Origin: Kitasatospora cineracea
Lineage (GTDB): Bacteria > Actinomycetota > Actinomycetes > Streptomycetales > Streptomycetaceae
Assembly: GCF_003751605.1 (NCBI RefSeq)
Contig: NZ_RJVJ01000001.1
Location: 1,364,001 to 1,428,000 of the forward strand
Reading direction: 5' to 3'
DNA length: 64,000 bases
This document shows, one piece after another, positions 8,547 through 44,935 of the stretch (position 1 is its first letter; every line of letters starts with the position of its first letter). The position numbers and the translations under genes are program-made. Below the pieces are notes generated by a model. It was not told where the DNA came from and made no database searches. It worked only from the letters and a program-made list of their open reading frames with translations.

Positions 8547-12039
<3,493 letters not shown>

Positions 12040-12056
12040 CTGTTCGGCTCCTGCGG

Positions 12057-13061
12057 TCAGTGGTGCGCGGCGGGGATGTGCTGGACGCCGATCCGGCGGC
12101 GGAACACCCAGTACGTCCAGCCCTGGTAGAGCAGCACGAGCGGGGTGAAGACGAGGGCGACGACGGTCATCACCTTGAGCGTGTAGGGCGAGGACGAGGC
12201 GTTGGTGACGGTCAGCGACCAGTCCGGGTTCAGCGTGGAGGGCATCACGTCGGGGAACAGCGACAGGAAGAGCATGCCGACGGCGGCGACGACGGTCAGG
12301 CCGCTGAGCGCGAACGCCCAGCCCTCGCGGGCGAGTCGGTTGGCGCCGAGCGCGCCGAGCAGGGCGAGGACGGCGACGACCAGGGCGGCCAGGCTCCAGC
12401 CGTTGCCGGAGTGGGCCTGGGTCCAGACCAGGAAGACCAGGGCGAGCACGGCGGTGGCCAGGCCGAGCGCGGTGGCCTGGGCGCGGGCCCGGATCCGGAT
12501 CTCGCCGCTGGTCTTGAGCGAGGCGAACACCGCGCCGTGGAAGGTGAACAGCACCAGGGTGGTGAGTCCGCCGAGCAGCGCGTACGGGTTGAGCAGGTCC
12601 CAGAGGGTGCCGACGTAGTTCTTGTCGGCGTCGATGTCGACGCCGTGCACGATGTTGGCGAAGGCGACGCCCCACAGGAAGGCGGGCAGCAGCGAGGTCC
12701 AGAAGATCGCCAGTTCCCAGTTGCGCTGCCAGCGTTCGCCGCTGCGCTGGTGCCGGTACTCGAAGGAGACGCCGCGGACGATCAGGCAGACCAGGATCAG
12801 CAGCAGCGGGATGAAGAAACCGCTGAACAGGGTGGCGTACCAGTCGGGGAAGGCCGCGAAGGTGGCGCCGCCCGCGGTGAGCAGCCACACCTCGTTGCCG
12901 TCCCAGACCGGGCCGATGGTGTTGATCAGGACGCGGCGCTCGGCGGTGTCGCGGGCCAGCAGCCGGGTGAGGACGCCGATGCCGAAGTCGAAGCCCTCGA
13001 GGAAGAAGTAGCCGATCCACAGGACGGCGATCAGGACGAACCAGAGGTCGTGCAGGTGCAT
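12057..13061 (-). CDS. cydB: Cytochrome bd oxidase subunit II
   Basis: 334 aa, about nine hydrophobic helices. The N-terminus has the family motif WIGYFFLEGFDFGIGVL, then NTIGPVWDGNEVWLLTAGGATFAAFPDWYATLFSGF... (only the first part is diagnostic). CydB is the structural partner of CydA in the quinol-oxidising terminal oxidase. ATG 13061 lies 11 nt after the cydA stop, indicating one transcript with cydA and cydCD. Confidence 0.96.
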   Translation of the reverse strand: MHLHDLWFVLIAVLWIGYFFLEGFDFGIGVLTRLLARDTAERRVLINTIGPVWDGNEVWLLTAGGATFAAFPDWYATLFSGFFIPLLLILVCLIVRGVSFEYRHQRSGERWQRNWELAIFWTSLLPAFLWGVAFANIVHGVDIDADKNYVGTLWDLLNPYALLGGLTTLVLFTFHGAVFASLKTSGEIRIRARAQATALGLATAVLALVFLVWTQAHSGNGWSLAALVVAVLALLGALGANRLAREGWAFALSGLTVVAAVGMLFLSLFPDVMPSTLNPDWSLTVTNASSSPYTLKVMTVVALVFTPLVLLYQGWTYWVFRRRIGVQHIPAAHH

Positions 13062-13072
13062 GTGATCCGTCC

Positions 13073-14614
13073 TCAGTACGCGAAGGCGAGGGGCTGGTCG
13101 GCGTCCTCGTCGTCGGAGGGGCCGCGCAGGGTCGGGTCCTTGGCGGGCGGCTTCTCCTCGGTGTCCGGCCCGGCGGCGGCGTACTTGGCGAGCAGTCTGA
13201 CCTCGATGACGGCGAGGACGGCGTACAGCACGGTGAGCGTGGTGAGGCCGACCGCCTGGGTGCCGACGGTGACGTTGGGGGAGACGGCGTCGCGGGTGCG
13301 CATCAGGCCGAACACCACCCAGGGCTGGCGGCCCATCTCGGTGAAGATCCAGCCGAAGCTGTTGGCGAGCAGCGGGAAGCCCATGGTGAGGATGCCGATC
13401 CGCCAGCTCCACCGGGTGAAGAAGACGTTCATCTCGCGGTTCCTGGTGAGCATCAGCTTCGGCGGCTCGTCCTCGGCGGTGCGGTGCTCGGGGGCGAGCC
13501 AGAACCTGCGGCGGGTGGTCCACAGGCCGATCAGCGCGGCGGCGAAGGACGTCATGCCGAAGCCGATCATCAGCCGGAATCCCCAGTAGGTGACGAAGAT
13601 GTTGGGGATGTAGTCGTCGGGCTGCCCGCCGTACTCGGCGGCTTCGGCGGCGGCGGTGTCGTTGATGCCGGGCACCGAGGACGAGAAGTCGTTGTGGGCG
13701 AGGAAGGACAGTATCCCGGGGATCTCCAGCTCGACCGAGTTGTGGCCCTTGGAGACGTCGCCGACCGCGAAGACCGAGAACGGGGCGGGTGCCTGGGTGT
13801 CCCACAGGGCCTCGGCGGCGGCCATCTTCATCGGCTGCTGCTCGAACATCACCTTGCCGAGGGTGTCGCCGCTGATCGCGGTGCCCAGGCCGGCGACCAC
13901 GGCGATGGCCAGGCCGACCCGCAGCGAGGTGCGCATCGCGGCGGTCTTCCGGCCGTCGGTCTGCTTGCCGCGCTTGGCCCGCCACAGGTGGTAGCTGGCG
14001 ATGCCGACCACGAAGGCGGCGCCGGTGAGGAAGGCGGCGGTGAGGGTGTGGAAGACCTGCACCACGGTGGTGTTCTGGGTCAGCACCCGGACGATGTCGG
14101 TGAGCTGGGCCTTGCCGGTGGCCGGGTCGACCTTGTAGCCGACCGGGTGCTGCATCCAGGAGTTGGCGGCCAGGATGAAGTAGGCGGAGAGGGCGGTGCC
14201 GATCGCCACCAGCCAGATGCAGGCCAGGTGGATCTTCTTCGGGAGGCGGTCCCAGCCGAAGATCCACAGGCCGATGAAGGTGGACTCGAAGAAGAAGGCG
14301 ATCAGCGCCTCCATCGCCAGCGGGGCCCCGAACACGTCGCCGACGAAGCGGGAGTAGTCGGACCAGTTCATGCCGAACTGGAACTCCTGGACGATGCCGG
14401 TGACCACGCCCATGGCGATGTTGATCAGGAAGAGCCTGCCCCAGAACTTGGTGGCGTGGAAGTACTTCTCCTTGCCCGTGCGCACCCAGGCGGTCTGCAG
14501 TCCGGCCACGATCGAGGCCAGGCTGATGGTGAGGGGCACGAAGAGGAAGTGGTAGACGGTGGTGATGCCGAACTGCCATCGCGAGATGGTCTCGTGAGCG
14601 ACTGCTAGGTCCAC
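13073..14614 (-). CDS. cydA: Cytochrome bd oxidase subunit I
   Basis: 513 aa from GTG 14614, which has GAGAGGG about 5 nt upstream and gives the standard CydA N-terminus (DLAVAHETISRWQFG). The haem b595 ligand His is in TVYHFLFVPLT (about residue 22). The helix MNWSDYSRFVGDVFGAPLAMEAL and FFFESTFIGLW carry the conserved acidic residues of the proton path, and TGEGRQPW-like TEMGRQPWVV is present near residue 440. It is the haem-bearing catalytic subunit for O2 reduction at low oxygen. First gene of the cydA-cydB-cydCD operon, under a Rex-type operator. Confidence 0.96.
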   Translation of the reverse strand: MDLAVAHETISRWQFGITTVYHFLFVPLTISLASIVAGLQTAWVRTGKEKYFHATKFWGRLFLINIAMGVVTGIVQEFQFGMNWSDYSRFVGDVFGAPLAMEALIAFFFESTFIGLWIFGWDRLPKKIHLACIWLVAIGTALSAYFILAANSWMQHPVGYKVDPATGKAQLTDIVRVLTQNTTVVQVFHTLTAAFLTGAAFVVGIASYHLWRAKRGKQTDGRKTAAMRTSLRVGLAIAVVAGLGTAISGDTLGKVMFEQQPMKMAAAEALWDTQAPAPFSVFAVGDVSKGHNSVELEIPGILSFLAHNDFSSSVPGINDTAAAEAAEYGGQPDDYIPNIFVTYWGFRLMIGFGMTSFAAALIGLWTTRRRFWLAPEHRTAEDEPPKLMLTRNREMNVFFTRWSWRIGILTMGFPLLANSFGWIFTEMGRQPWVVFGLMRTRDAVSPNVTVGTQAVGLTTLTVLYAVLAVIEVRLLAKYAAAGPDTEEKPPAKDPTLRGPSDDEDADQPLAFAY

Positions 14615-14700
14615 TGCGCCCTCTCTCACAGGTTTCGCACATAACGGACGGAACGCATATGTAGCACTCAGGTGCGACATACCCGCCCAAGCTTGTCCGC

Positions 14701-14724
14701 TTGTGAACGTGAACACGTTCACAA
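14701..14724. promoter_or_regulatory. Rex (NADH/NAD+ sensor) operator upstream of cydA
   Basis: TTGTGAACGT (14701-14710), spacer GAAC, ACGTTCACAA (14715-14724): 10-bp perfect inverted arms matching the streptomycete Rex operator pattern TGTGAACG-n-CGTTCACA known upstream of cydABCD. It lies about 87 nt upstream of the cydA start. High NADH would release Rex and derepress bd oxidase. Rex itself is not encoded in this window. Confidence 0.9.
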
Positions 14725-14896
14725 GGGAAGTATCCATGATGCTTATCGGTGCGGATGCACGGGGGTGGGGTGTTCTCGGACACGCCGATGATCCGACGTC
14801 CGGCCGACCCCCCACAAGCGGCACCGGGGCAGCCCGGCTGTACCGAACGGCGCTTGACACCGCCCGCCCTGACCTGGCGTCAGACCGGCGCGGGCC

Positions 14897-16360
14897 TCAG
14901 CGCTGCAGCGGCAGCGAGAGCCGGAACACCGCGCCCTCGCCCGGGGAGGTGCGCAGCGACAGCTCCCCGTCGTGCGCCGAGACCAGGGCGCTGGCGATGG
15001 CCAGGCCCAGGCCCGACCCGCCGCTCTGGCCGGGCAGCCGGGTGCGGGCGGCGTCCGCCCGGTAGAAGCGCTCGAAGACCAGGGCGGCCTGCTCCTGCGT
15101 CAGCCCCGGCCCCTGGTCGGCGACCTCCAGCAGGCAGCCGCCGGACGCCCGGCCCACGCCGATCCGCACCGCGGTGCCGGACGGGGTGTGCTTGACCGCG
15201 TTGCCCACCAGGTTGGTCACCACCTGGCGCAGCCGGGCCTCGTCGCCCAGCACCGGCGCGGCCTGCGGGGAGCCCAGGCCGTTCGGGCCGGTCAGCGCGA
15301 CCGGGCGGCCCGGGTCCAGCGCGGTCAGGTCGTGCAGGGCGTCGGCGGCCAGCGTGCGCAGGTCCATCGGGGCCAGGTTGAGCGGGCGCTCCTCGTCGAG
15401 CCGGGCCAGCATCAGCAGGTCCTCGACCAGTGCGCCCAGGCGCACCGCCTCCGACTCGATCCGGTCCATCGCCCGGTCCACGTCCTGCAGCGCGCCCATC
15501 CGGTGCAGCTCGGCGAAGCCCCGGATGCCCGCCAGCGGGGTGCGCAGCTCGTGCGAGGCGTCCGCGACGAAGCGGCGCATCCGCTGCTCGGAGGCGGCCC
15601 GGGCGGCGAACGCCGTCTCGATGTGGGTGAGCATCCCGTTCAGCGCGGCGGACAGCCGGCCCGCCTCGGTGCGCACCGGCAGCTCCGGCATCCGGTACGA
15701 CAGGTCGCCGTCGGCGATCCGCTGGGCGCCCGCCTCCAGCTGGCGCAGCGGCCGCAGCCCGGCCCGCACCGCGAGCGCGCCGAGGCCCGCGAGGCCGACC
15801 AGCACCGCGCCGCCGATGGTCAGGAAGGTGGTGCGCAGGTGCGAGATGGTGGACTCGACGTCCGCCAGCGGCACCGCGACCTGCACGTACCGGGGCACCG
15901 CGAGGTCGCCGCCCGCGGTGGCGCGCTGCAGCGGCAGCACCATCGAGCGCCACTCGCCGGCCTTCGGCCCCGAGGCGGTGAACGGGTCGTCCAGCCGATC
16001 GGTCAGGCCCTTGCGGTCCAGCGCGGGCAGCTGCGGGGCCGGGTCGGAGTCGCTCAGCGGCTGCCGGATCACCGACAGCACCGAGCCGTCCTCGGCCAGG
16101 TAGCGCACCACGTACTCGCTGGGCAGGCTCTGCCCGGAGCGGCGGCCGACGTTCTGCGCGCTGAACACCGAGCTGGTGGTCTGCCGGGTCGGCGGGCGGC
16201 GGGAGAGCGGTTCGGCGAACCGGTCGAGCTGCTCGTCGGCCCGGTCCACCAGCTGGCCGCGGACGGTGCCCAGCACCAGGGTGTCGCTCACCACCAGCCC
16301 GGTGGTGACCAGCAGCAGCGCGAGCACCAGCAGGCGCACCCGCAGCGAGAAGCGGGCCAT
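14897..16360 (-). CDS. Membrane sensor histidine kinase (OmpR-class, TrcS/TcrY-like)
   Basis: 487 aa. TM1 is at ~7-30, an extracytoplasmic sensor region of ~145 residues follows, TM2 at ~177-200, HAMP at ~200-250, the phosphoacceptor His270 in FVADASHELRTPLAG, then HATPase_c with NLVGNAVKHTPSG, VADQGPGL and GGSGLGLAI. It autophosphorylates in response to an unknown envelope signal. The gene starts 1 nt after the response-regulator stop codon, so the two are translationally coupled. They follow the MacAB-like operon on the same strand. Confidence 0.93.
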   Translation of the reverse strand: MARFSLRVRLLVLALLLVTTGLVVSDTLVLGTVRGQLVDRADEQLDRFAEPLSRRPPTRQTTSSVFSAQNVGRRSGQSLPSEYVVRYLAEDGSVLSVIRQPLSDSDPAPQLPALDRKGLTDRLDDPFTASGPKAGEWRSMVLPLQRATAGGDLAVPRYVQVAVPLADVESTISHLRTTFLTIGGAVLVGLAGLGALAVRAGLRPLRQLEAGAQRIADGDLSYRMPELPVRTEAGRLSAALNGMLTHIETAFAARAASEQRMRRFVADASHELRTPLAGIRGFAELHRMGALQDVDRAMDRIESEAVRLGALVEDLLMLARLDEERPLNLAPMDLRTLAADALHDLTALDPGRPVALTGPNGLGSPQAAPVLGDEARLRQVVTNLVGNAVKHTPSGTAVRIGVGRASGGCLLEVADQGPGLTQEQAALVFERFYRADAARTRLPGQSGGSGLGLAIASALVSAHDGELSLRTSPGEGAVFRLSLPLQR

Positions 16361-16361
16361 C

Positions 16362-17123
16362 TCAGCTGTTCGGCGGGCGGCGCAGCGCGTAGCCGATGCC
16401 GCGCACCGTGTGGATCAGCTTGGGGCCGTGCATCGGGCCGGAGTCGAGCTTGCGGCGCAGGTAGGAGATGTACGACTCGACGATGGAGAGGTCGCCGCCG
16501 AAGTCGTACGCCCACACGTGGTCGAGGATCTGCGCCTTGGAGACCACCCGGCCGACGTTGGCCATCAGGTAGTGCAGCAGCTTGAACTCGGTGGGGGAGA
16601 GCGAGACCGGGACGCCGCCGCGGGTGACCTCGTGCGCGGTCGGGTCCAGGGTGAGGTCGGCCACCACCAGGCGGCCGTCGTCGGCGGGGCCGCCGGCCCG
16701 GCGCAGGATCGCCCGGATCCGGGCGATCAGCTCCTCCAGGCTGAACGGCTTGGTGACGTAGTCGTCGGCGCCGACCGCCAGGCCCTGCACCTTGTCGCCG
16801 GTGCCGTCCTTGGCGGTCAGGAACAGCACCGGGACGTGCTCGGGGCTCTGCGGCCACTGGGTCTGGTCGCGCAGCCGCTGCACCACGGTGAAGCCGTCCA
16901 GGTCGGGCAGCATGACGTCCAGCACGACCAGGTCGGGCCGCTCGGCGGCGACCGCGTCCAGGGCCTCCTGGCCGGTGGCGGCGGAGGCCACCCGGAAGCC
17001 GGAGAACCGCAGGCTGGCCGAGAGCAGCTCGCGGATGTTCGGTTCGTCGTCCACCACCAGCAGGAACGGCTCGCCGCCGACCTGGGTCGCCGCGGCCGGG
17101 TTCGACTGCACTGCGCCTGACAC
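16362..17123 (-). CDS. OmpR/PhoB-family response regulator
   Basis: 253 aa from GTG 17123 (GGAG about 8 nt upstream). Receiver domain: acidic pair D25/D26 in VVDDEPN, phosphoacceptor D69 in VVLDVMLPDLDG, LFLTAKD and VTKPFSLEEL. The winged-helix effector has TPTAHEVTR, LSPTEFKLLHYLM, SIVESYISYLRRKLD and LIHTVRGIGYALR. It pairs with the adjacent kinase and, from its position, probably controls the adjacent MacAB-like export operon. That last point is inference. Confidence 0.94.
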   Translation of the reverse strand: MSGAVQSNPAAATQVGGEPFLLVVDDEPNIRELLSASLRFSGFRVASAATGQEALDAVAAERPDLVVLDVMLPDLDGFTVVQRLRDQTQWPQSPEHVPVLFLTAKDGTGDKVQGLAVGADDYVTKPFSLEELIARIRAILRRAGGPADDGRLVVADLTLDPTAHEVTRGGVPVSLSPTEFKLLHYLMANVGRVVSKAQILDHVWAYDFGGDLSIVESYISYLRRKLDSGPMHGPKLIHTVRGIGYALRRPPNS

Positions 17124-34318: not shown

Positions 34319-36222
<1,904 letters not shown>

Positions 36223-36553: not shown

Positions 36554-36738
36554 CTACACCTCAGCAGGGCTTTGCAAACCCTTTACCACTGTTTCGAGAC
36601 AGTGACAGTTCCCACGGGTGCGGGGCCTTCCACCCCGCCGCCGGGCGGCGGAGAATGCCGCTGCCACCGGATTCCGCGCCCACAACTGCACCACCCTGCG
36701 CAGCCACGGACCGGTGTGCCACGAAGGGGGAGTTCCCG

Positions 36739-38223
36739 ATGCTCATCGGCATCGCCGGGGGAGTCGTCGCCGGCATCGTTCTGCTGGTCCTGCTGTTCAA
36801 GTTGATGTGGCGGGTGGCGGAACCGAACGAGGCACTGGTCATCTCGGGTTCCAAGCACGGCGAGGGCCTCGGCTTCCGCATCATCACCGGACGGGGCACC
36901 CTCGTGGTGCCCGGCGTCCAGGTGGTCCGGCGGCTGTCGCTGGACCTCAACGAGGCCGCGCTGGACGTCGAGTGCGTGACCTCGCAGGGCATTCCGGTCC
37001 ACGTCAAGGGCGTGGTCATCTTCAAGGTCGGCGACGACCCGTCGTCCATCGCCAACGCCGCCCGCCGCTTCCTGGACCAGCAGAAGATGATGGGCCAGCG
37101 GGTGCACAACGTGTTCGCCGGCCACCTGCGCTCCATCGTCGGCGGGCTGACCGTCGAGGACATGATCCGCGACCGCGAGCGGCTCACCGGGGAGACCCGC
37201 TCCGCCTCGGGGATCGAGATGGAGAAGCTCGGCCTGATCATCGACTCGCTGCAGATCCAGGAGATCCTGGACCCGACCGGCTACATCACCAACCTGGCCG
37301 CCCCGCACGCCGCCGCCGTCCAGCGCGACGCCCGGATCGCGGCCGCCGAGGCCGACCGCCGGGCCACCGAGGCCGAGCAGGAGGCGTTCGCCCGCAAGGC
37401 CGAGGCGACGCGCAACTCCGGCATCCAGCAGGCCGGTTACCAGGCCGAGATGGACACCGCCGCGGCCCGCGCGCTGCAGGCCGGCCCGCTCGCCCAGGCC
37501 GCCGCCCGGCAGGAGGTCGTGGTCCAGGAGACCAAGGTCGCCGAGCTGGAGGCGCACCGCAAGGAGCAGCAGCTCCAGGCCGACGTCCGCAAGCCCGCCG
37601 ACGCCCGCGCGTACGAGACCCGCACCAAGGCCGAGGCCGACCGCGACGCCCGGATCTCCGCCGCCGAGGCGCTCTCCCGGGAGACCGACCTGAAGACCGC
37701 CGCCGAGGCCAACCGGGTCAAGGTCGCCGCGGCCGCCGAGGCCGAGGCCACCCGGGCCCGCGGCCTGGCCGCCGCCGAGGCCACCCGCGCCACCGGTGAG
37801 GCCCAGGCCGCCGCCGAGGCCGCCAAGGGCCTGGCCGAGGCGGAGGCCGCCCGCGCCAAGGGCCTCGCCGAGGCCGAGGCCACCCGGGCCCAGGGCCTGG
37901 CCGAGGCCGAGGGCATCAAGGCCCGCGCCGCGGCCCTCGCCGAGAACCAGGAGGCCGTCGTCGCCCAGCAGTTGGCCGAGAACTGGCCCGCCATCGTCCG
38001 GGCCGGCGCGGACGCCTTCGGCAACGTCGAGCACATGGTGCTGCTGAACGGCGCCGAGGGCATGTCCGAGATGTTCGCCAAGGCGCTCACCATGGGCGGC
38101 ACCGGCCTCGGCCTGGCCCGCCAGCTGCTCACCTCGATGAACACCGGCGCCCCCGCCGAGGCCCCGGCGGAGCCCGCCCCGGCCACCCAGGTCATCCCGG
38201 TGCAGGCCGACAGCGGCAACTGA
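36739..38223 (+). CDS. Flotillin / SPFH-domain membrane protein
   Basis: 494 aa from ATG 36739 (GGGGAG 6 nt upstream). An N-terminal TM (IGIAGGVVAGIVLLVLLFKL) is followed by the SPFH/band-7 domain (NEALVISGSKHGEGLGFRII, VPGVQVVRRLSLDLNEAALD, VHVKGVVIFKVGDDPSSIA), then a long Ala/Glu-rich coiled coil with EAEATRARGLAAAEA-type repeats, and a C-terminal AENWPAIVRAGADAFGNVEH. Flotillins organise membrane microdomains. Preceded by the NfeD-like gene and followed by a very strong hairpin. Confidence 0.93.
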   Translation: MLIGIAGGVVAGIVLLVLLFKLMWRVAEPNEALVISGSKHGEGLGFRIITGRGTLVVPGVQVVRRLSLDLNEAALDVECVTSQGIPVHVKGVVIFKVGDDPSSIANAARRFLDQQKMMGQRVHNVFAGHLRSIVGGLTVEDMIRDRERLTGETRSASGIEMEKLGLIIDSLQIQEILDPTGYITNLAAPHAAAVQRDARIAAAEADRRATEAEQEAFARKAEATRNSGIQQAGYQAEMDTAAARALQAGPLAQAAARQEVVVQETKVAELEAHRKEQQLQADVRKPADARAYETRTKAEADRDARISAAEALSRETDLKTAAEANRVKVAAAAEAEATRARGLAAAEATRATGEAQAAAEAAKGLAEAEAARAKGLAEAEATRAQGLAEAEGIKARAAALAENQEAVVAQQLAENWPAIVRAGADAFGNVEHMVLLNGAEGMSEMFAKALTMGGTGLGLARQLLTSMNTGAPAEAPAEPAPATQVIPVQADSGN

Positions 38224-38346: not shown

Positions 38347-38362
38347 TGAGTACCCGTACTCA
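38347..38362. promoter_or_regulatory. 16-bp palindrome upstream of the OleA-like cluster
   Basis: TGAGTAC-CC-GTACTCA, a perfect palindrome 36-51 nt upstream of the first gene of the five-gene cluster. Its position suits a transcription-factor operator. I cannot assign the regulator, and no regulator gene is adjacent. Confidence 0.6.
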
Positions 38363-38397
38363 CGCCCCCTCCACCGCCCCCGCGCCAGCATCGGAGC

Positions 38398-39405
38398 ATG
38401 GACCTGCTGCCCCGTGTCGGAATCACCGCCGTCGGCTCCCACCTCCCGCAACGGGCCGTCACCTCACGGCAGTTGCAGGATGAGGTGGCGGCCGGCGCCC
38501 GCCTGCCGCTGCCCGACGGCATGTTCGAGAAGGCCACCGGCATCCGCACCCGCCGCTTCGCCGGGCCCGACGAGCACCCCTCCACGCTCGCCCTCGGCGC
38601 CGCCCGCCGGGCCCTGGCCGCCCGCGGACTGGAACCCGCCGACCTCGACCTGCTGCTGTTCGCCTCCGCCTCCCGGGACGTCTGCGAACCCGCCACCGCC
38701 CACCTCGTCCAGGCCGAACTCGGCTCCCGCGCCCACGCGTTGGACATATCCAACGCCTGCAACAGCTTCCTCAACGGCATCGACACCGCCCGCGCGATGA
38801 TCCTGGCCGGCCGCGCCACCCGCGCCCTGGTGGTCACCGGCGAGACCCCCAGCCGGGCCATGCGCCGCGACCCGTCCGGGCTCGCCGAGTTCCGCGCGGG
38901 CTTCGCCGGCTACACCTTCGGCGACGGCGCCGCCGCCGTCCTGGTCGAACGGGTCGACCGCGGCGGCATCCTCGACGTCGAGACCCAGACCGCCTCCGAG
39001 CACTGGGAGGTCGGCGGCATCCCCGGCGGCGGCTCCCGCCACCCGCGCGGCGACGAGTGGAGCTACTTCCGCGGCGGCGGCAAGGAACTGCGCGGCGTCT
39101 TCGAGCAGATCGGCGCCGACATCCTCACCCGGGTCGCCGCCCGCACCGGCCTCGGCTGGGACGCCTACGCCCGGGTCCTGGTCCACCAGGTCACGCTGCC
39201 CTACCTGGAGCGCTTCGTGGAGCTCACCGGCGTCCCCGCCGACAGGCTGGTCGTCACCGTCCCCGAACTCGGCAACCTGGCCTCCGCCACCATCGGCGTC
39301 CAACTCGACCGCATCATGCCGGAGTTGGAGACCGGCGACCGCGTCCTGATGGTCGGCCTCGGCGGCGGCGTCAGCCTGATGACGATGGTCTGGGAGAAGT
39401 CGTGA
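38398..39405 (+). CDS. OleA-like thiolase / 3-oxoacyl-ACP synthase III homologue
   Basis: 335 aa KAS III fold. Catalytic triad candidates: Cys121 in LDISNACNSFLNG, His263 in VLVHQVTLPY, Asn293 in PELGNLASATIG. The segment SASRDVCEPATAHLV contains Glu97, matching the RD-x-x-EP-x-x-A pattern I associate with OleA, whose Glu acts across the dimer in head-to-head Claisen condensation of two acyl-CoAs. FabH proper lacks this. First gene of a five-gene operon; its stop overlaps the next start (GTGA). Condensation of two acyl chains is the favoured role; plain FabH-like priming is the alternative. Confidence 0.8.
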   Translation: MDLLPRVGITAVGSHLPQRAVTSRQLQDEVAAGARLPLPDGMFEKATGIRTRRFAGPDEHPSTLALGAARRALAARGLEPADLDLLLFASASRDVCEPATAHLVQAELGSRAHALDISNACNSFLNGIDTARAMILAGRATRALVVTGETPSRAMRRDPSGLAEFRAGFAGYTFGDGAAAVLVERVDRGGILDVETQTASEHWEVGGIPGGGSRHPRGDEWSYFRGGGKELRGVFEQIGADILTRVAARTGLGWDAYARVLVHQVTLPYLERFVELTGVPADRLVVTVPELGNLASATIGVQLDRIMPELETGDRVLMVGLGGGVSLMTMVWEKS

Positions 39406-40142
39406 CCGAGCTGTGGGTGATCGTCCCCGCCTACCAGGAGGCCGCCCGGATCGACGCCACCCTGCGCGCCCTCGCCGCCCAGCACGACCGCGACTTCACC
39501 CTGCTGGTCGTCGACAACGGCTCCACCGACACCACCCCCGACCAGGTGCTCGCCTTCGCACGCACCGCCCCCTTCCCGGTCCACCTGCTGGTCGAACCCG
39601 AGAAGGGCGTCGGCTGCGCCGTCGACACCGGCTTCCGCCACGCCATCGACCACGGCGCCACCCTGCTCGCCCGCACCGACGCCGACTGCCTCCCCGAACC
39701 CGGCTGGGCCGGCGCCGCCCGCGCCGGGATGCTGGCCTCCGGCGGGCTGGTCTGCGGCCGCGTCACCGCCCGCCGGGACGAGCACGGCCCGCTCGGCCGG
39801 GCCGTCTTCCGCGCCCTGGTCGCCCTCGGCGCCCTCTTCGGCCGGATCCGCCCCGCCCACCGCCGCCGCCACGGCTACCTCACCCCCTACCGCATGCACG
39901 CCGGCAACAACATGGCCATCACCGCCGACCTCTACCTCGCCACCGACGGCATGCCCCGCCGCCCCTCCCCCACCGACCGCGCCTTCATCAACCGGATCCG
40001 CCGCCACACCACCGCGATCGTCCACCGCCCCGACATGGTCGTCCAGAACTCCACCCGCCGCATCCGCGCCTACGGCCTGCGCGGCACCGCCCGCTGGTAC
40101 CTCGAACGCGGCCCCGGCCACCGCAGCGCCGACGTCAGATGA
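39402..40142 (+). CDS. Family 2 glycosyltransferase
   Basis: 246 aa from GTG 39402, overlapping the upstream stop by 4 nt. GT-A fold: LWVIVPAYQEAARIDATLRA, LLVVDNGSTDTTP, EKGVGCAVDTGFRHA, and the metal-binding LARTDADCLPEPGW (DxD). The acceptor region has YRMHAGNNMAITADLY. No C-terminal TM helices, so probably soluble or peripheral. It sits inside a lipid-type cluster, which suggests glycosylation of the cluster's product. Sugar donor unknown. Confidence 0.88.
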   Translation: MTELWVIVPAYQEAARIDATLRALAAQHDRDFTLLVVDNGSTDTTPDQVLAFARTAPFPVHLLVEPEKGVGCAVDTGFRHAIDHGATLLARTDADCLPEPGWAGAARAGMLASGGLVCGRVTARRDEHGPLGRAVFRALVALGALFGRIRPAHRRRHGYLTPYRMHAGNNMAITADLYLATDGMPRRPSPTDRAFINRIRRHTTAIVHRPDMVVQNSTRRIRAYGLRGTARWYLERGPGHRSADVR

Positions 40143-40317
40143 CCGGAGGCCCCGCCGGAGAACCCCGTCGCAGAGCCCCGTCAGGGGCCCGGGGAGAGGC
40201 GGGTCGATGCCGCCGGAGGCCGGATCCCACCGAAGAGCCCACGCTGCAGAGGGCCGGTCGGAACAGCACCCCGGAACAACGCCCCTCGAAGCACCCACCC
40301 GCCGGAAGGACCCCGCC

Positions 40318-41793
40318 GTGCTCGACCAGCTCGCCCGCACCCTGCGCGAAGGCGCCTCGCGTCCGGCCCTGCTCGGCACCACCCGCGGCGGCAGCCCCCG
40401 CGTCCTCGCCCGCTGCGGCGAACTCTCCGCCCTCGCCGAGCAGTACGCCGCCGCCCTGCACCACGTCCACGGCCTGCGTCCGGGCGACACCCTGGGCGTG
40501 GCGGTGCGTCCCGGCCCGCGGGCCCTCGCGGTGCTGCTGGCCGCGCACCGGCTGGGCCTGCGCAGCGCGGTGCTCGACCCGGGCGCCGGCCCGGAGGTGC
40601 TGCGGGCCCGGCTCGCGCTGGCCCCGCCCGCGCTGGTCCTGGCCGACGCCGCCGCACAGGCCGTCGCGGGGTGGGCCCGTCCGCTGGCCCGCCGGGCCCA
40701 CCTGGAGCTGCCGCCGCTGGAGGCGCTGGCACCGGTGGCGACCGTCGGCCCCCGGCACCCGTGGTGCGCCCGGTCGCTGGCCGCGCACCCGGCGCCCGCC
40801 CCGGCCCCGTACGAGGGGGACGGTGACGCGGTGATCGTGTTCACCTCCGGCACCACCTCCGCGCCGCGCGCGGTGGTGCACTCGCGGGCCTCGCTGGCCG
40901 CCGGGATGCGGGCCGTCGACGCACTGGTGCGCCCCCGCCCCGGGCGGACGGTGCTGGGCGGGACGACGTTCGTCCTGGTCCCGGCGCTGGCCGCGGGCGC
41001 CATCGCCGCCCTGCCGGCCCGGCGCACCGCCGTCCTGCAGCGCCAACTCGACCGGCTCGCCCCGGACGAGACCTACCTGACGCCGCCCCGGCTCCGGCCG
41101 CTGCGCCGGCTCACCGGCCGGGTCTGGACCGGCTCCGCGCCCGCCGACGCCGCGCTGCTGCGCCGGGCGAAGCAGGCGGGGGCGAGCGAGGCGTGGGGGG
41201 TGTACGCGCTGACCGAACTGTTCCCGGCCGCGGCCGTCGAGGAGCGCGACAAGAGCGCCCACGACGGCCCGGGCGACCTGCTCGGCCACCCGCTGCCGGG
41301 CGTCCGCACCCGGCTCGGCGCGGACGGCGAACTCCTGCTCGCCGCCCCGTCCGCCCGCGACCGCTACCTCGGCGAGGACCCGGACCCGTGGGTGCGCACC
41401 GGCGACCGGGCCCGCCTCGACCCGGACGGGCGGATCGTGCTGGCGGGCCGGCTCAAGGACATGGTGCTGCGCCGCGCCGAGAACATCTACCCGGGCCTGT
41501 ACGAGCCGTCCCTGCACCTGCCGGACGTCGAACTCGCCGTCCTGGTCGGCGTCCCCGGCCCGGACGGCGACGAACAGCTGGTCGCCCTGGTCCAGCCCCG
41601 CCCCGGCGCCGACCGCCACCGGCTGCGCGCCGCCCTGCGCGCCCCGCTCGACCGGATGGGCACCGCCCGCCCCGACGCCCTGCTGCTCGGCCCCGTCCCG
41701 CTGACCGGCCGCTCCCGCAAACCCGACCGCCCCGCCGCCGCCCACTACTGCGCCGCCCACCTCGCCAAGTCCCCCGCCCGGAGCACCCGTTGA
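40318..41793 (+). CDS. AMP-forming acyl ligase, OleC-like
   Basis: 491 aa from GTG 40318 (GGAAGGA 8 nt upstream). ANL-superfamily: P-loop IVFTSGTTSAPRAV (about 173-186), GVYALTELFP, the hinge TGDRARLDPDGRIVLAGRLKDMV, and catalytic Lys468 in GRSRKPDRP. OleC enzymes of the family adenylate a beta-hydroxy acid to form a beta-lactone; simple fatty acyl-CoA or acyl-AMP ligase activity is the alternative. Third gene of the operon, ~175 bp after the glycosyltransferase. Its stop codon lies in the first copy of a triplicated segment. Confidence 0.82.
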   Translation: MLDQLARTLREGASRPALLGTTRGGSPRVLARCGELSALAEQYAAALHHVHGLRPGDTLGVAVRPGPRALAVLLAAHRLGLRSAVLDPGAGPEVLRARLALAPPALVLADAAAQAVAGWARPLARRAHLELPPLEALAPVATVGPRHPWCARSLAAHPAPAPAPYEGDGDAVIVFTSGTTSAPRAVVHSRASLAAGMRAVDALVRPRPGRTVLGGTTFVLVPALAAGAIAALPARRTAVLQRQLDRLAPDETYLTPPRLRPLRRLTGRVWTGSAPADAALLRRAKQAGASEAWGVYALTELFPAAAVEERDKSAHDGPGDLLGHPLPGVRTRLGADGELLLAAPSARDRYLGEDPDPWVRTGDRARLDPDGRIVLAGRLKDMVLRRAENIYPGLYEPSLHLPDVELAVLVGVPGPDGDEQLVALVQPRPGADRHRLRAALRAPLDRMGTARPDALLLGPVPLTGRSRKPDRPAAAHYCAAHLAKSPARSTR

Positions 41794-41932
41794 CCCCCGC
41801 CCGCCGCGCCTCCGCACCCGCCCCGTGCCACCCCCATCAAGTCCCCCGCCCGGACCGCCCGTTGACCCCCGCCCCGTGCCAACCCACCAAGTCCCTTCCC
41901 CGGAACGCCCGTTGACCCCAGCCCGCCGCGCC
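41766..41932 (+). repeat. Triplicated translation-start segment at the ligase-P450 junction
   Basis: Units beginning CAAGTCCC at 41766, 41838 and 41888 (72- and 50-bp offsets) each reach CCGTTGACCC exactly 24 nt later. In unit 1 the TTGA is the ligase stop overlapping a TTG. In unit 3 the TTG (41912) is in frame with the P450. Units 1 and 3 are both followed by CCCGCCGCGCC. The P450 start appears to have been displaced by tandem duplication. Confidence 0.75.
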
Positions 41933-43015
41933 GACCGCGCGGTGTACCTGCGCAGCCACCCGCTGCTGTTCGCCCTGCTCGCCGCGACCCGGCACCGGCC
42001 GGTGCTCCGGCTCGGCCGCACCGTGCTGGTGCACCACCCGGACGCCTACCGCGAGGTGCTCACCCGGGTGCCGCTCGACCGGACGGCCGAGCACACCACC
42101 GGCGGCACCGCCGCCCGGCTCACCGGCGGCAGCCTGCTCTTCGACCAGCAGGGAGCCGAACACCGAGCCGCCCGGAGGGAGTTGGCCGCCCTGCTGGGCC
42201 CGGCGGGGGCGGCCGCGCTGGAACCGGGCTGGCAGCGGATCCTGGACCGGCACCTGGCCGGCCTCACCGCGCCGGTCGACCTGGTCCCCGCCGTCCGCGA
42301 ACTGGCCGGGGCGACGGCCGCCGCGCTCACCGGCAGCGACGCCGACCCGGTCCGCCTCGCCCGCGCCGCCGAACGCGCCGCGGCCGCCACCGCCCGCGCG
42401 CACCTGCCCGCCCTGCTGCCCCGTCCGGGCGGCGCCCGCCGGGCCCGGGCGGCCGCCGAGCGGCTCCGGCTGCTGCTGCCCGACCCGCGCGACGCGATGC
42501 TCGCCGTCGCCGCCGTCAACACCACCCTCGCCGCGCTGCCCCGGGCCGCCGCCTGGTGCGCCCGCGAGCAGCTCTGGGACCGCGCCCGCGAGGACGCCCC
42601 GGCGCTGGCCGCCGAGCTGCTCCGCCGCACCGCCGCCTCCCCGGTCCTGCCCCGGGCCGCGGCCGCCGACGCCACCGTCCTCGGCCACCGGATCCGCCGC
42701 GGCGACCGCCTCCTGCTGGTCGCCCGGCACGCCGCCGAGGCCCACCGCGACGCCCCCGCCCACCCCCACGCCGTCCGGGCCCCGTTCGGCTTCGGCCCGC
42801 ACACCTGCCCGGGCGCCGGCCTGGCCCGCGCCCAACTCGCCCTGCTGCTCGGCACCCTGGCCCCGTACGCCCCCCGGGTCCTGCGCACCGCCCCGCACCC
42901 CGGCAGCGCCCTCCCCTCCTACCGCAGCTGCGTCCTCGCGGCGCCCGCGGCGGAGACCCGAGCCCCCGTCCGCCCGGAACCCGGCCGCCCGGAGGAGCCC
43001 CCGTGCCCCCGCTGA
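41912..43015 (+). CDS. Small divergent cytochrome P450
   Basis: 367 aa from TTG 41912 (GGAA 7 nt upstream); GTG 41942 is an alternative start. The haem-binding loop FGFGPHTCPGAGLARAQ gives Cys299. The K-helix ExxR is ELLR at 235-238. The C-helix has HRAARRELAALL. The I-helix lacks the usual acid-alcohol AGxxT; instead AAVNTTLAAL stands there, so oxygen activation may be atypical. It is shorter than the usual ~400 residues. Fourth gene of the OleA-like operon; it overlaps the next gene by 13 nt. It would oxidise the lipid product or intermediate. Confidence 0.88.
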   Translation: MTPARRADRAVYLRSHPLLFALLAATRHRPVLRLGRTVLVHHPDAYREVLTRVPLDRTAEHTTGGTAARLTGGSLLFDQQGAEHRAARRELAALLGPAGAAALEPGWQRILDRHLAGLTAPVDLVPAVRELAGATAAALTGSDADPVRLARAAERAAAATARAHLPALLPRPGGARRARAAAERLRLLLPDPRDAMLAVAAVNTTLAALPRAAAWCAREQLWDRAREDAPALAAELLRRTAASPVLPRAAAADATVLGHRIRRGDRLLLVARHAAEAHRDAPAHPHAVRAPFGFGPHTCPGAGLARAQLALLLGTLAPYAPRVLRTAPHPGSALPSYRSCVLAAPAAETRAPVRPEPGRPEEPPCPR

Positions 43016-43905
43016 CCCTCGCCCTGACCGGCGCCACCGGCTTCTGCGGCGGACACCTCGCCGCCCTCGCCACCGCCCGCGGCCACCGGGTGCTCGCGCT
43101 CGGCCGCCGCCCCGCCCGGCACGGCGTGCACGTGCCGTGGGACGCCGCCGCCGACGCCCCCGCCCCGCCCGAACTGCGCGCGGCGGACCTCGTGGTGCAC
43201 TGCGCCGCGGCCGTCGGCGACCACCCGCCGGGCTCCCCCGCCGAACGGCACCAGCACACCGTCAACGTACGGGCCACCGAACGCCTGCTGGCGGCCGCCG
43301 CCGGCACGCCCTTCGTGTTCGTGAGCAGCGCCAGCGTCTACGACCCCCGCCCGGACCGGTCCCTGGTCGGCGAGCAGCACCCCACCGCCGCAGGGCACTT
43401 GAACGCCTACGGCCGGACGAAGGCCCGCGCGGACGCCCTCGCGCTCGCCGCCGGCGCCGTCGTGCTGCGCCCGCGCGCGGTGTACGGACCGGGGGACCCG
43501 CACCTGGTGCCGCGGCTGCTGGCGTCGGTCCGGTACGGGGTGCTGGCGCTGCCGGGCGGGGACGTCGAGCTGAGCCTGACCGCGGTGGAGAACCTGGCCG
43601 AGGCGTGCCTGGCGGCGGTGGGCTGGCCGCCGGGCGCGTACAACGTCGCCGACCGGGCCCCGTACCGGCGGGACGCGGCGCTGCGCCGGGTGCTGGCGGC
43701 GCACGGCCGCCGGGCCCGGCTGCTGCACGTGCCGCCCGGGCTGGCGGCGCTCGCGGTCGGCCGGCGCCCGCAGCTGACCCGGTACGCGCTGGACCAGCTC
43801 GCGCACCGGGTGGTGCTGGACACGCGGAAGTCCCGGTCCCGGGGCTTCACCCCGGGCCGGGACCTCGACGACTACCTCGCTGCCCTCGGCAGCCGTGGTG
43901 CCTAG
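43003..43905 (+). CDS. NAD(P)-dependent epimerase/dehydratase, OleD-like
   Basis: 300 aa from GTG 43003 with strong GGAGGA upstream. Extended SDR: LTGATGFCGGHLA dinucleotide motif (10-17), VVHCAAAVGDH, FVSSASVYD with catalytic Ser, and Tyr136/Lys140 in NAYGRTK. VLRPRAVYGPGD and GAYNVAD are also typical. In Ole pathways OleD reduces the beta-keto acid made by OleA, and this gene fits that slot. Last gene of the operon; its stop overlaps the converging DUF5326-like gene by 3 nt. Confidence 0.88.
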   Translation: MPPLTLALTGATGFCGGHLAALATARGHRVLALGRRPARHGVHVPWDAAADAPAPPELRAADLVVHCAAAVGDHPPGSPAERHQHTVNVRATERLLAAAAGTPFVFVSSASVYDPRPDRSLVGEQHPTAAGHLNAYGRTKARADALALAAGAVVLRPRAVYGPGDPHLVPRLLASVRYGVLALPGGDVELSLTAVENLAEACLAAVGWPPGAYNVADRAPYRRDAALRRVLAAHGRRARLLHVPPGLAALAVGRRPQLTRYALDQLAHRVVLDTRKSRSRGFTPGRDLDDYLAALGSRGA

Positions 43906-44278: not shown

Positions 44279-44935
44279 TCAGACCGGCCAGGTCTCGCCG
44301 CGCCAGGCGGCGTCCCAGAACATCCACTCGTAGCGCGAGGTGGTGGTGAAGTGCTCGACCACGCGCCGCCGTTCGGCCGCGGACAGCTCCGCGCCGATCC
44401 GGTCGGTGAGGTCCAGGACGCGGCGCACCACGCTCTGGAAGCCCTCGTCGCCGTAGGCGGCGATCCACTTGGCGTAGAGCGGCTCGGGGGAGGAGCGGCG
44501 GGCCAGCTCCTCGCCGACCCGGGCGTAGATCCAGTAGCAGGGCAGGACGGCGCCGAGCGCCTCGGCGAAGGAGCCGCCGTACGCGGTGGCCAGCAGGTAG
44601 GAGGTGTAGGCCCGGGTGGTGGGCAGCACCGCCTCGTCGCCGTCGGCCGGGCCGCCGAGCGCGGCCGTGAACTCGCCGTGCATCTCCTGCTCGGCGGCGA
44701 TCGCGCCGACCGCGTCGTTGCAGAAGGCCAGTACCTCGTCCTCGCCGGGCGCCTTGGCGGCGCAGACGGCCAGCGCCCGGGCGTAGTCGCGCAGGTAGTG
44801 GGAGTCCTGGACGACGAAGTGCCGGAACGCGGCGCGCGGGAGGGTGCCGTCGGCGAGGCCGAGCAGGAAGGGGTGGTCGAGGATCCGGCGGTAGGTCGGC
44901 TCGGCGGCCGCCCACAGTTCGTCGGTGAGCTTCAC
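44279..44935 (-). CDS. TenA/thiaminase II-like protein
   Basis: 218 aa from GTG 44935 (AGGAGG upstream). All-helical haem-oxygenase-like fold with TenA signatures: HPFLLGLADGTLPRAAFRHFVVQDSHYL, EQEMHGEF, TRAYTSYLL, AVLPCYWIYARVGEEL, and YAKWIAAYGDEGF. The pyrimidine-binding acid is the Asp in VVQDSHYLRDY. TenA enzymes salvage degraded thiamine pyrimidines; related proteins have other roles. It follows a cupin gene with 38 nt between and lacks its own riboswitch. Confidence 0.88.
   Translation of the reverse strand: MKLTDELWAAAEPTYRRILDHPFLLGLADGTLPRAAFRHFVVQDSHYLRDYARALAVCAAKAPGEDEVLAFCNDAVGAIAAEQEMHGEFTAALGGPADGDEAVLPTTRAYTSYLLATAYGGSFAEALGAVLPCYWIYARVGEELARRSSPEPLYAKWIAAYGDEGFQSVVRRVLDLTDRIGAELSAAERRRVVEHFTTTSRYEWMFWDAAWRGETWPV

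Follow-up and report, generated by a model that had tools for sequence, protein, structure and literature searches.

A window of 64,000 nucleotides from the Kitasatospora cineracea genome (contig NZ_RJVJ01000001.1, positions 1,364,001 to 1,428,000) carries an operon of five genes which encode a thiolase of the OleA type (KS), a glycosyltransferase (GT), an AMP-forming ligase (AL), a cytochrome P450 and a short-chain reductase (SDR), but no OleB. This operon may direct the synthesis of a P450-oxidised, glycosylated α-alkyl β-lactone or the corresponding open β-hydroxy acid, a reading in which we place about even confidence. The initial annotation of this DNA called the pathway undescribed, which does not hold, since the gene set and nearly the same product idea are already in print: Smith et al. 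(2020) reported OleA, glycosyltransferase, OleC, P450 and OleD genes together in Actinoplanes atraurantiacus and predicted, as a proposal, a hydroxylated, glycosylated β-lactone (PMC7064751). What is new relative to that report is the assignment of the enzymes to clades, the distribution of the operon, the borders of the cassette and an exchange of genes in Micromonospora. No isolated glycosylated head-to-head lipid of such a kind was found in the open-licence literature searched, and a term search in the main text of a Gram-positive ole gene survey gave no match to Kitasatospora, Streptomyces, Actinoplanes, glycosyl or P450 (PMC7158056).

The Operon and Its Genes

The five genes lie on the + strand at 38398-43905 with complete, co-directional frames and overlapping or closely spaced ends, as first annotated; KS and GT overlap by 4 bp and P450 and SDR by 13 bp. 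Of the extent originally given, 38347-43905, the end stands and the start is moved to the first in-frame ATG at 38398. The Pfam families are ACP_syn_III and its C-terminal partner ACP_syn_III_C for KS, Glycos_transf_2 for GT, AMP-binding for AL and Epimerase/3Beta_HSD for SDR. These four are recognized by both Pfam and NCBIfam, and the P450 by Pfam alone (p450, with its best stretch around the heme site). The cassette stands on one contig of an 8.76 Mb genome, and the five-gene set is real and intact. The features, all on the + strand, are as follows.

38398-39405, +: KS, OleA-type KAS III thiolase, 335 aa, ATG start
38686-38688, +: KS Glu97 codon (EP motif; equivalent of OleA Glu117), Glu in 81/81 operon rows
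38758-38760, +: KS Cys121 codon, Cys in 81/81 operon rows
39184-39186, +: KS His263 codon, partner of Cys121, His in 81/81 operon rows
39274-39276, +: KS Asn293 codon, partner of Cys121, Asn in 81/81 operon rows
39402-40142, +: GT, GT2-family glycosyltransferase, 246 aa (Pfam), DAD motif at 39678-39686
40207-41793, +: AL, AMP-forming ligase of a divergent clade, putative β-lactone synthetase (Pfam, NCBIfam, tree); a later GTG start at 40318 is possible
41719-41721, +: AL Lys505 codon, Lys in 76/78 rows
41912-43015, +: P450; frame open from 41825, TTG start at 41912 guessed from relatives
42518-42520, +: P450 I-helix AVNTT, Asn at the usual acid position (alignment of 73 rows)
42806-42808, +: P450 heme Cys codon, Cys in 70/73 rows
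43003-43905, +: SDR, OleD-related extended short-chain reductase, YxxxK at 43408-43422

Proposed Pathway

In the pathway that we infer, from each reaction and the dimer to the step order, chain lengths, sugar and ring closure, a homodimeric KS, using Cys121, His263 and Asn293 together with Glu97 of the partner subunit, would join two acyl thioesters by non-decarboxylative condensation to give a 2-alkyl-3-oxo acid. SDR would then reduce the ketone, the P450 would hydroxylate one chain, and GT would add a sugar onto the hydroxyl made by the P450. Finally, AL would adenylate the acid and the 3-hydroxyl would close the four-membered ring. The route proposed for A. atraurantiacus likewise comprises Claisen condensation, reduction, hydroxylation, glycosylation and β-lactone ring closure (PMC7064751).

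The lack of OleB, seen at the outset, was confirmed: there is none in the operon, and a search of the own genome with a portion of OleB taken from an OleBC fusion gave a best partial match of 37 bits. The product would therefore stop before an olefin. An ordinary head-to-head olefin pathway served by an OleB from elsewhere in the genome would suit the resemblance of KS and SDR to OleA and OleD, but with no convincing OleB in the genome, and with GT and P450 as conserved parts of the operon, it was ruled out and is given hardly any probability.

Conservation of the Gene Set

The five proteins recur side by side in dozens of loci. Patterns from the window KS found 202 loci, and the best 80 of these, among which close relatives are over-represented, were fetched (designated L with a number). 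The order KS-GT-AL-P450-SDR is found in 52 of the 80, L017 being counted here by match positions although calls based on open reading frame starts had given a different order. In 14 of the 80, from Actinomadura and a Spirillospora, it is KS-GT-P450-AL-SDR, and in three KS-P450-AL-SDR. Conservation of the gene order, proposed as a check in the initial annotation, is thus evident, and its distribution over 52 + 14 of 80 loci is new relative to the published description. The other 11 loci are partial: seven lie at a contig edge (L019, L021, L025, L045, L049, L061 and L062), L072 lacks only a detectable P450 (a gap of 1.3 kb), and L071, L074 and L078 have one or more genes unmatched within the fetched stretch. 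KS matches of 95-96% suggest that the genome is close to K. phosalacinea.

Searches of the genus and the family targeted KS, AL and the two flanking genes rather than all five operon genes. KS was found in 37 of 70 genus genomes (E 1e-90) and AL in 35 of 70, always within 3.5 kb of KS (35/35). Because of this adjacency and the recurrence in dozens of loci, the gene set is beyond chance. A KS match was present in 58 of 249 family genomes (E 1e-70) and in three of 396 genomes of an even phylum sample, the own genome included (E 1e-60). In the same genus, one KS (G342:C420:6134-7111) is only 46% identical and represents a subtype different from the usual genus KS.

The Thiolase

The catalytic residues of KS are those of OleA. 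Residue 97 is a Glu inside SRDVCEPATA, which corresponds to the RD-x-x-EP-x-x-A segment picked out earlier, and it aligns with a Glu of the Xanthomonas protein 3fk5. Its equivalent is present in 22/22 operon, 13/13 OleA-clade and 2/2 nlt-type rows and in 0/9 other KAS III rows, one of the nine being a fragment (L006_own_2474 of L004_own_592) which was dropped from the shared-column counts and the outgroup tree. Together with NACxxFxN and the Cys/His/Asn residues, Glu97 makes up the OleA signature, aligned with the OleA-clade rows, whereas neither Glu97 nor a complete NACxxFxN is present in PqsD or the other KAS III rows. The best structural match of the KS model is X. campestris OleA, by a small margin over PqsD. 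Alignment columns common with OleA but not with other KAS III outnumber the reverse by 12 to 4; such counts, here and for AL and SDR below, are a leaning and not a test, as more varied "other" groups depress their own shared columns. The earlier description of the thiolase as OleA-like is thus supported on these features.

In the tree, the operon thiolases form their own clade (support 99/98), outside the group of FabH, PqsD and own-genome KAS III proteins, polyketide priming enzymes having been left out of the tree. With an outgroup, the operon clade joins OleA at 94/91, and the rival placement is not rejected (approximately unbiased test, p-AU 0.069). On the family model NF006720, KS scores 172 bits, below the cut-off of 285, as does the orthologue in L059 (162), while two ole-cluster thiolases pass with 424 and 465. 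Membership of FabH was ruled out by residues and clade, despite PqsD as the top single-sequence match in the PDB (130.6 bits vs 108.2 for 3fk5).

L059, from Paractinoplanes atraurantiacus, has the same five-gene order as the window and a KS 66-67% identical, and judging from species and gene order it presumably holds the gene that was assayed by Smith et al. That OleA was active on p-nitrophenyl hexanoate, which is ester hydrolysis, and the scarce purified enzyme gave no reaction with any of the C8-C16 acyl-CoAs tested (PMC7064751). This result, the PqsD match and the separate KS clade would fit a KS which is not a two-chain condenser and takes a short, branched, aromatic or ACP-bound partner, leading to a small glycosylated metabolite. 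Such an outcome seems improbable, though, in view of Glu97 and the full NACxxFxN, which PqsD and other KAS III proteins lack, and of the structural ranking, with X. campestris OleA slightly ahead.

The Reductase and the Ligase

SDR is sister to OleD/NltD with support 99/97, in a tree of 29 rows set against ten own-genome SDRs (four own-genome SDR loci without a frame were left out). Its YxxxK is intact, with Tyr and Lys each in 71/72 rows. The best NCBIfam models are those of OleD (65.5-65.8 bits), followed by a model at 34.2; the 65.8 bits are below the OleD cut-off of 580, a threshold that L107's nlt-type SDR, at 217, does not reach either. Columns common with OleD but not with other SDRs stand at 11 to 2 over the reverse, and the OleD-like label of the initial annotation can be kept.

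The label OleC-like cannot be kept in the sense of membership. AL falls in its own clade (100/100), with OleC/NltC in a separate one (100/100), and it is also apart from 11 own-genome ligases or nonribosomal peptide synthetase (NRPS) domains and one Micromonospora NRPS domain (100/98). It scores 82.6 bits on NF006754, whose cut-off is 478, hardly more than on a generic acyl-CoA ligase model (81.6), and 49 bits on NF045786, whose cut-off is 900. No match in 296 phylum genomes reaches the NF045786 cut-off, and the actinobacterial OleC references miss it as well, the two that were scanned passing NF006754; the OleC reference set was therefore drawn from clusters in which OleA- and OleD-type genes lie alongside. 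The separate clade and the scores below cut-off do not support OleC membership, and AL forms a third group in these trees, distinct from OleC as well as from the ordinary ligases compared. In the P-loop, Arg-Ala replaces Lys-Gly in most rows, and Lys505 is retained. PDB sequence searches with AL and the P450 gave generic matches only and no assignment.

AL is the point at which a β-lactone-free glycolipid operon has to be considered. In such an operon, KS and SDR would make a mycolate-like 2-alkyl-3-hydroxy acid, the P450 would oxidise it and GT would glycosylate it, while AL would feed acyl-CoA to KS or activate the acid for another acceptor. The separate AL clade, the retained C-terminal Lys and the equal scores on the OleC-containing and generic models agree with this, and the second glycosyltransferase described below, found in 16/80 loci and BrkB-fused in six, would suit a membrane glycolipid. 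On the other side, AL columns shared with OleC but not other ligases exceed the reverse by 6 to 2, and OleC-clade ligases replace the operon AL beside the same KS and P450 in three loci; a β-lactone-free product is accordingly possible but somewhat unlikely. As for the glycosylated β-lactone itself, two points weigh against it, namely that seven columns common to OleC and other ligases are absent from the operon AL, and that the sister thiolase did not react with the C8-C16 acyl-CoAs, as mentioned above.

Exchange Operons in Micromonospora

The three loci in question, L034, L035 and L064 (Micromonospora), have a KS 65-66% and a P450 52-56% identical to those of the window, and no GT match was found in them. 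The KS of L034 and L064 nest inside the operon KS clade, whereas their ligases and SDRs belong with OleC and with OleD/NltD, respectively, the nlt-like L107 being their closest neighbour in the trees. The L064 ligase reaches 556 bits on NF006754, over the cut-off of 478, and its SDR 206 bits on the OleD model. Between L035 and L034 all four proteins are 90-96% identical, and the three loci are near kin, so they are counted as one event. Downstream in all three lies an NRPS-like protein, roughly 1,000 aa long, in which PP-binding and AMP-binding with its C-terminal domain were recognized. The exchange operons span about 8962-16850, and the first 420 residues of this adenylation and peptidyl carrier protein matched no Pfam family when tested in L064.

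As OleC- and OleD-clade genes stand here beside a KS and P450 of the operon type, the exchange suggests that the divergent AL and SDR stand in for OleC and OleD, and these operons amount to a natural experiment on the functional equivalence of the enzymes. Since the P450 is kept where GT is missing, it would serve the thiolase product and not GT alone. By analogy with lipstatin, which carries an amino-acid ester, a handle made by the P450 may be capped by a sugar in the window type and by an amino acid in the exchange operons.

A wider extension is a modular β-lactone cassette, in which KS and P450 would build a two-chain, hydroxyl-bearing scaffold and lineages would add differing finishing parts: a sugar in Kitasatospora, Streptomyces and Micromonosporaceae and an amino acid in the exchange operons. 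We regard this, finishing parts included, as doubtful, at a little over one chance in four. If true, the glycosylated β-lactones would form a new class of actinobacterial compounds, acting as serine-hydrolase inhibitors or as envelope lipids, and a ligase clade outside OleC would have taken the lactone role. β-Lactones include the lipase inhibitor lipstatin.

P450 and Glycosyltransferases

At the I-helix acid position of the P450, the 73 rows include 48 with Asn, 14 with Glu and 8 with Thr. The Glu is the Actinomadura type, and the Actinomadura P450s are just 26-31% identical to that of the window; in AVNTT, Asn stands for the usual Asp/Glu before Thr and is kept in most non-Actinomadura members. 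This conserved Asn means that oxygen activation may be unusual. The GT DAD motif occurs in 76/76 rows, and the AlphaFold2 model of GT (pLDDT 86.8) has glycosyltransferases as its Foldseek matches; these are many, with PcManGT first, so donor and acceptor are not readable from them.

Sixteen of the 80 loci, from Micromonosporaceae, one Nocardioides and one Streptomyces, carry a second GT2, placed between AL and P450. In six it stands behind a BrkB-type membrane domain (L044 at 12183-13766, L050, L063, L065, L068 and L069), and in the ten others it has no such domain. In L038 (Planosporangium thailandense), ligase and P450 are separated by an open frame on the minus strand (12199-13371) that weakly matches P450.

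A Presence/Absence Cassette

The genes which border the operon lie outside the cassette.

36655-38223, +: flotillin-like gene, upstream border (flank comparison)
44282-44935, -: TenA-like gene, downstream border (translation, ortholog search)

The latter gene we take to be TenA-like by name. A ThiC gene (34319-36100) and this gene flank the cassette, which gives a thiamine-related neighbourhood in the K. cineracea genome. A strong flotillin match was present in 51 genus genomes. In 30 of these, KS lies between the flotillin and TenA-like genes, with the flanks 5,720-14,698 bp apart, and in 16 the same flanks are 506-2,561 bp apart without KS. KS is elsewhere in two of the remaining genomes and three are split over contigs; four further KS carriers have no strong flotillin match. 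From the 30 occupied and 16 empty sites, the operon in the genus is a presence/absence cassette, mostly between these two genes, and its product could be compared between carriers and non-carriers.

For the wider neighbourhood, three lineages were distinguished: Kitasatospora/Streptomyces, Actinomadura and its kin, and the rest. None of the 25 most widespread flanking families, whose gene calls include wrong-frame open reading frames, is common to all three, and one is common to two. A larger biosynthetic cluster was rejected on this ground, which makes the five genes the probable functional unit.

Comparison with Known Systems

The nearest described system is the A. atraurantiacus cluster, which matches the window operon in its five gene types and their order and whose genome, according to the authors, contains no candidate oleB (PMC7064751), but which belongs to another genus. 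The oleABCD and oleA-oleBC-oleD clusters share with the window an OleA-type Glu/Cys/His/Asn thiolase, an OleD-related SDR and an adjoining AMP-forming ligase; unlike them, the operon has no OleB, its KS and AL branch separately from the OleA and OleC clades, and P450 and GT are added. FabH and PqsD have the fold and the Cys-His-Asn triad in common with KS and differ in lacking Glu97 and the full NACxxFxN and in forming a separate clade.

The lst/nlt clusters resemble the window in combining KAS III, ligase and SDR without OleB. The nocardiolactone cluster has two KAS III genes, as does the nlt/lst-like L107, in contrast to the single KS gene of the window operon, which carries both Cys and Glu. 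L107 (4075-9053; G235, same class) has, in addition to the two KAS III genes, an OleC-type ligase and an OleD-type SDR, and its second KAS III has apparently lost the active-site Cys. Lipstatin bears an amino-acid ester, where the window operon has a GT. Its synthesis uses a KAS III heterodimer, as passages of one report state (PMC12141560), and clusters of the lst/nlt type make β-lactone products (PMC7064751).

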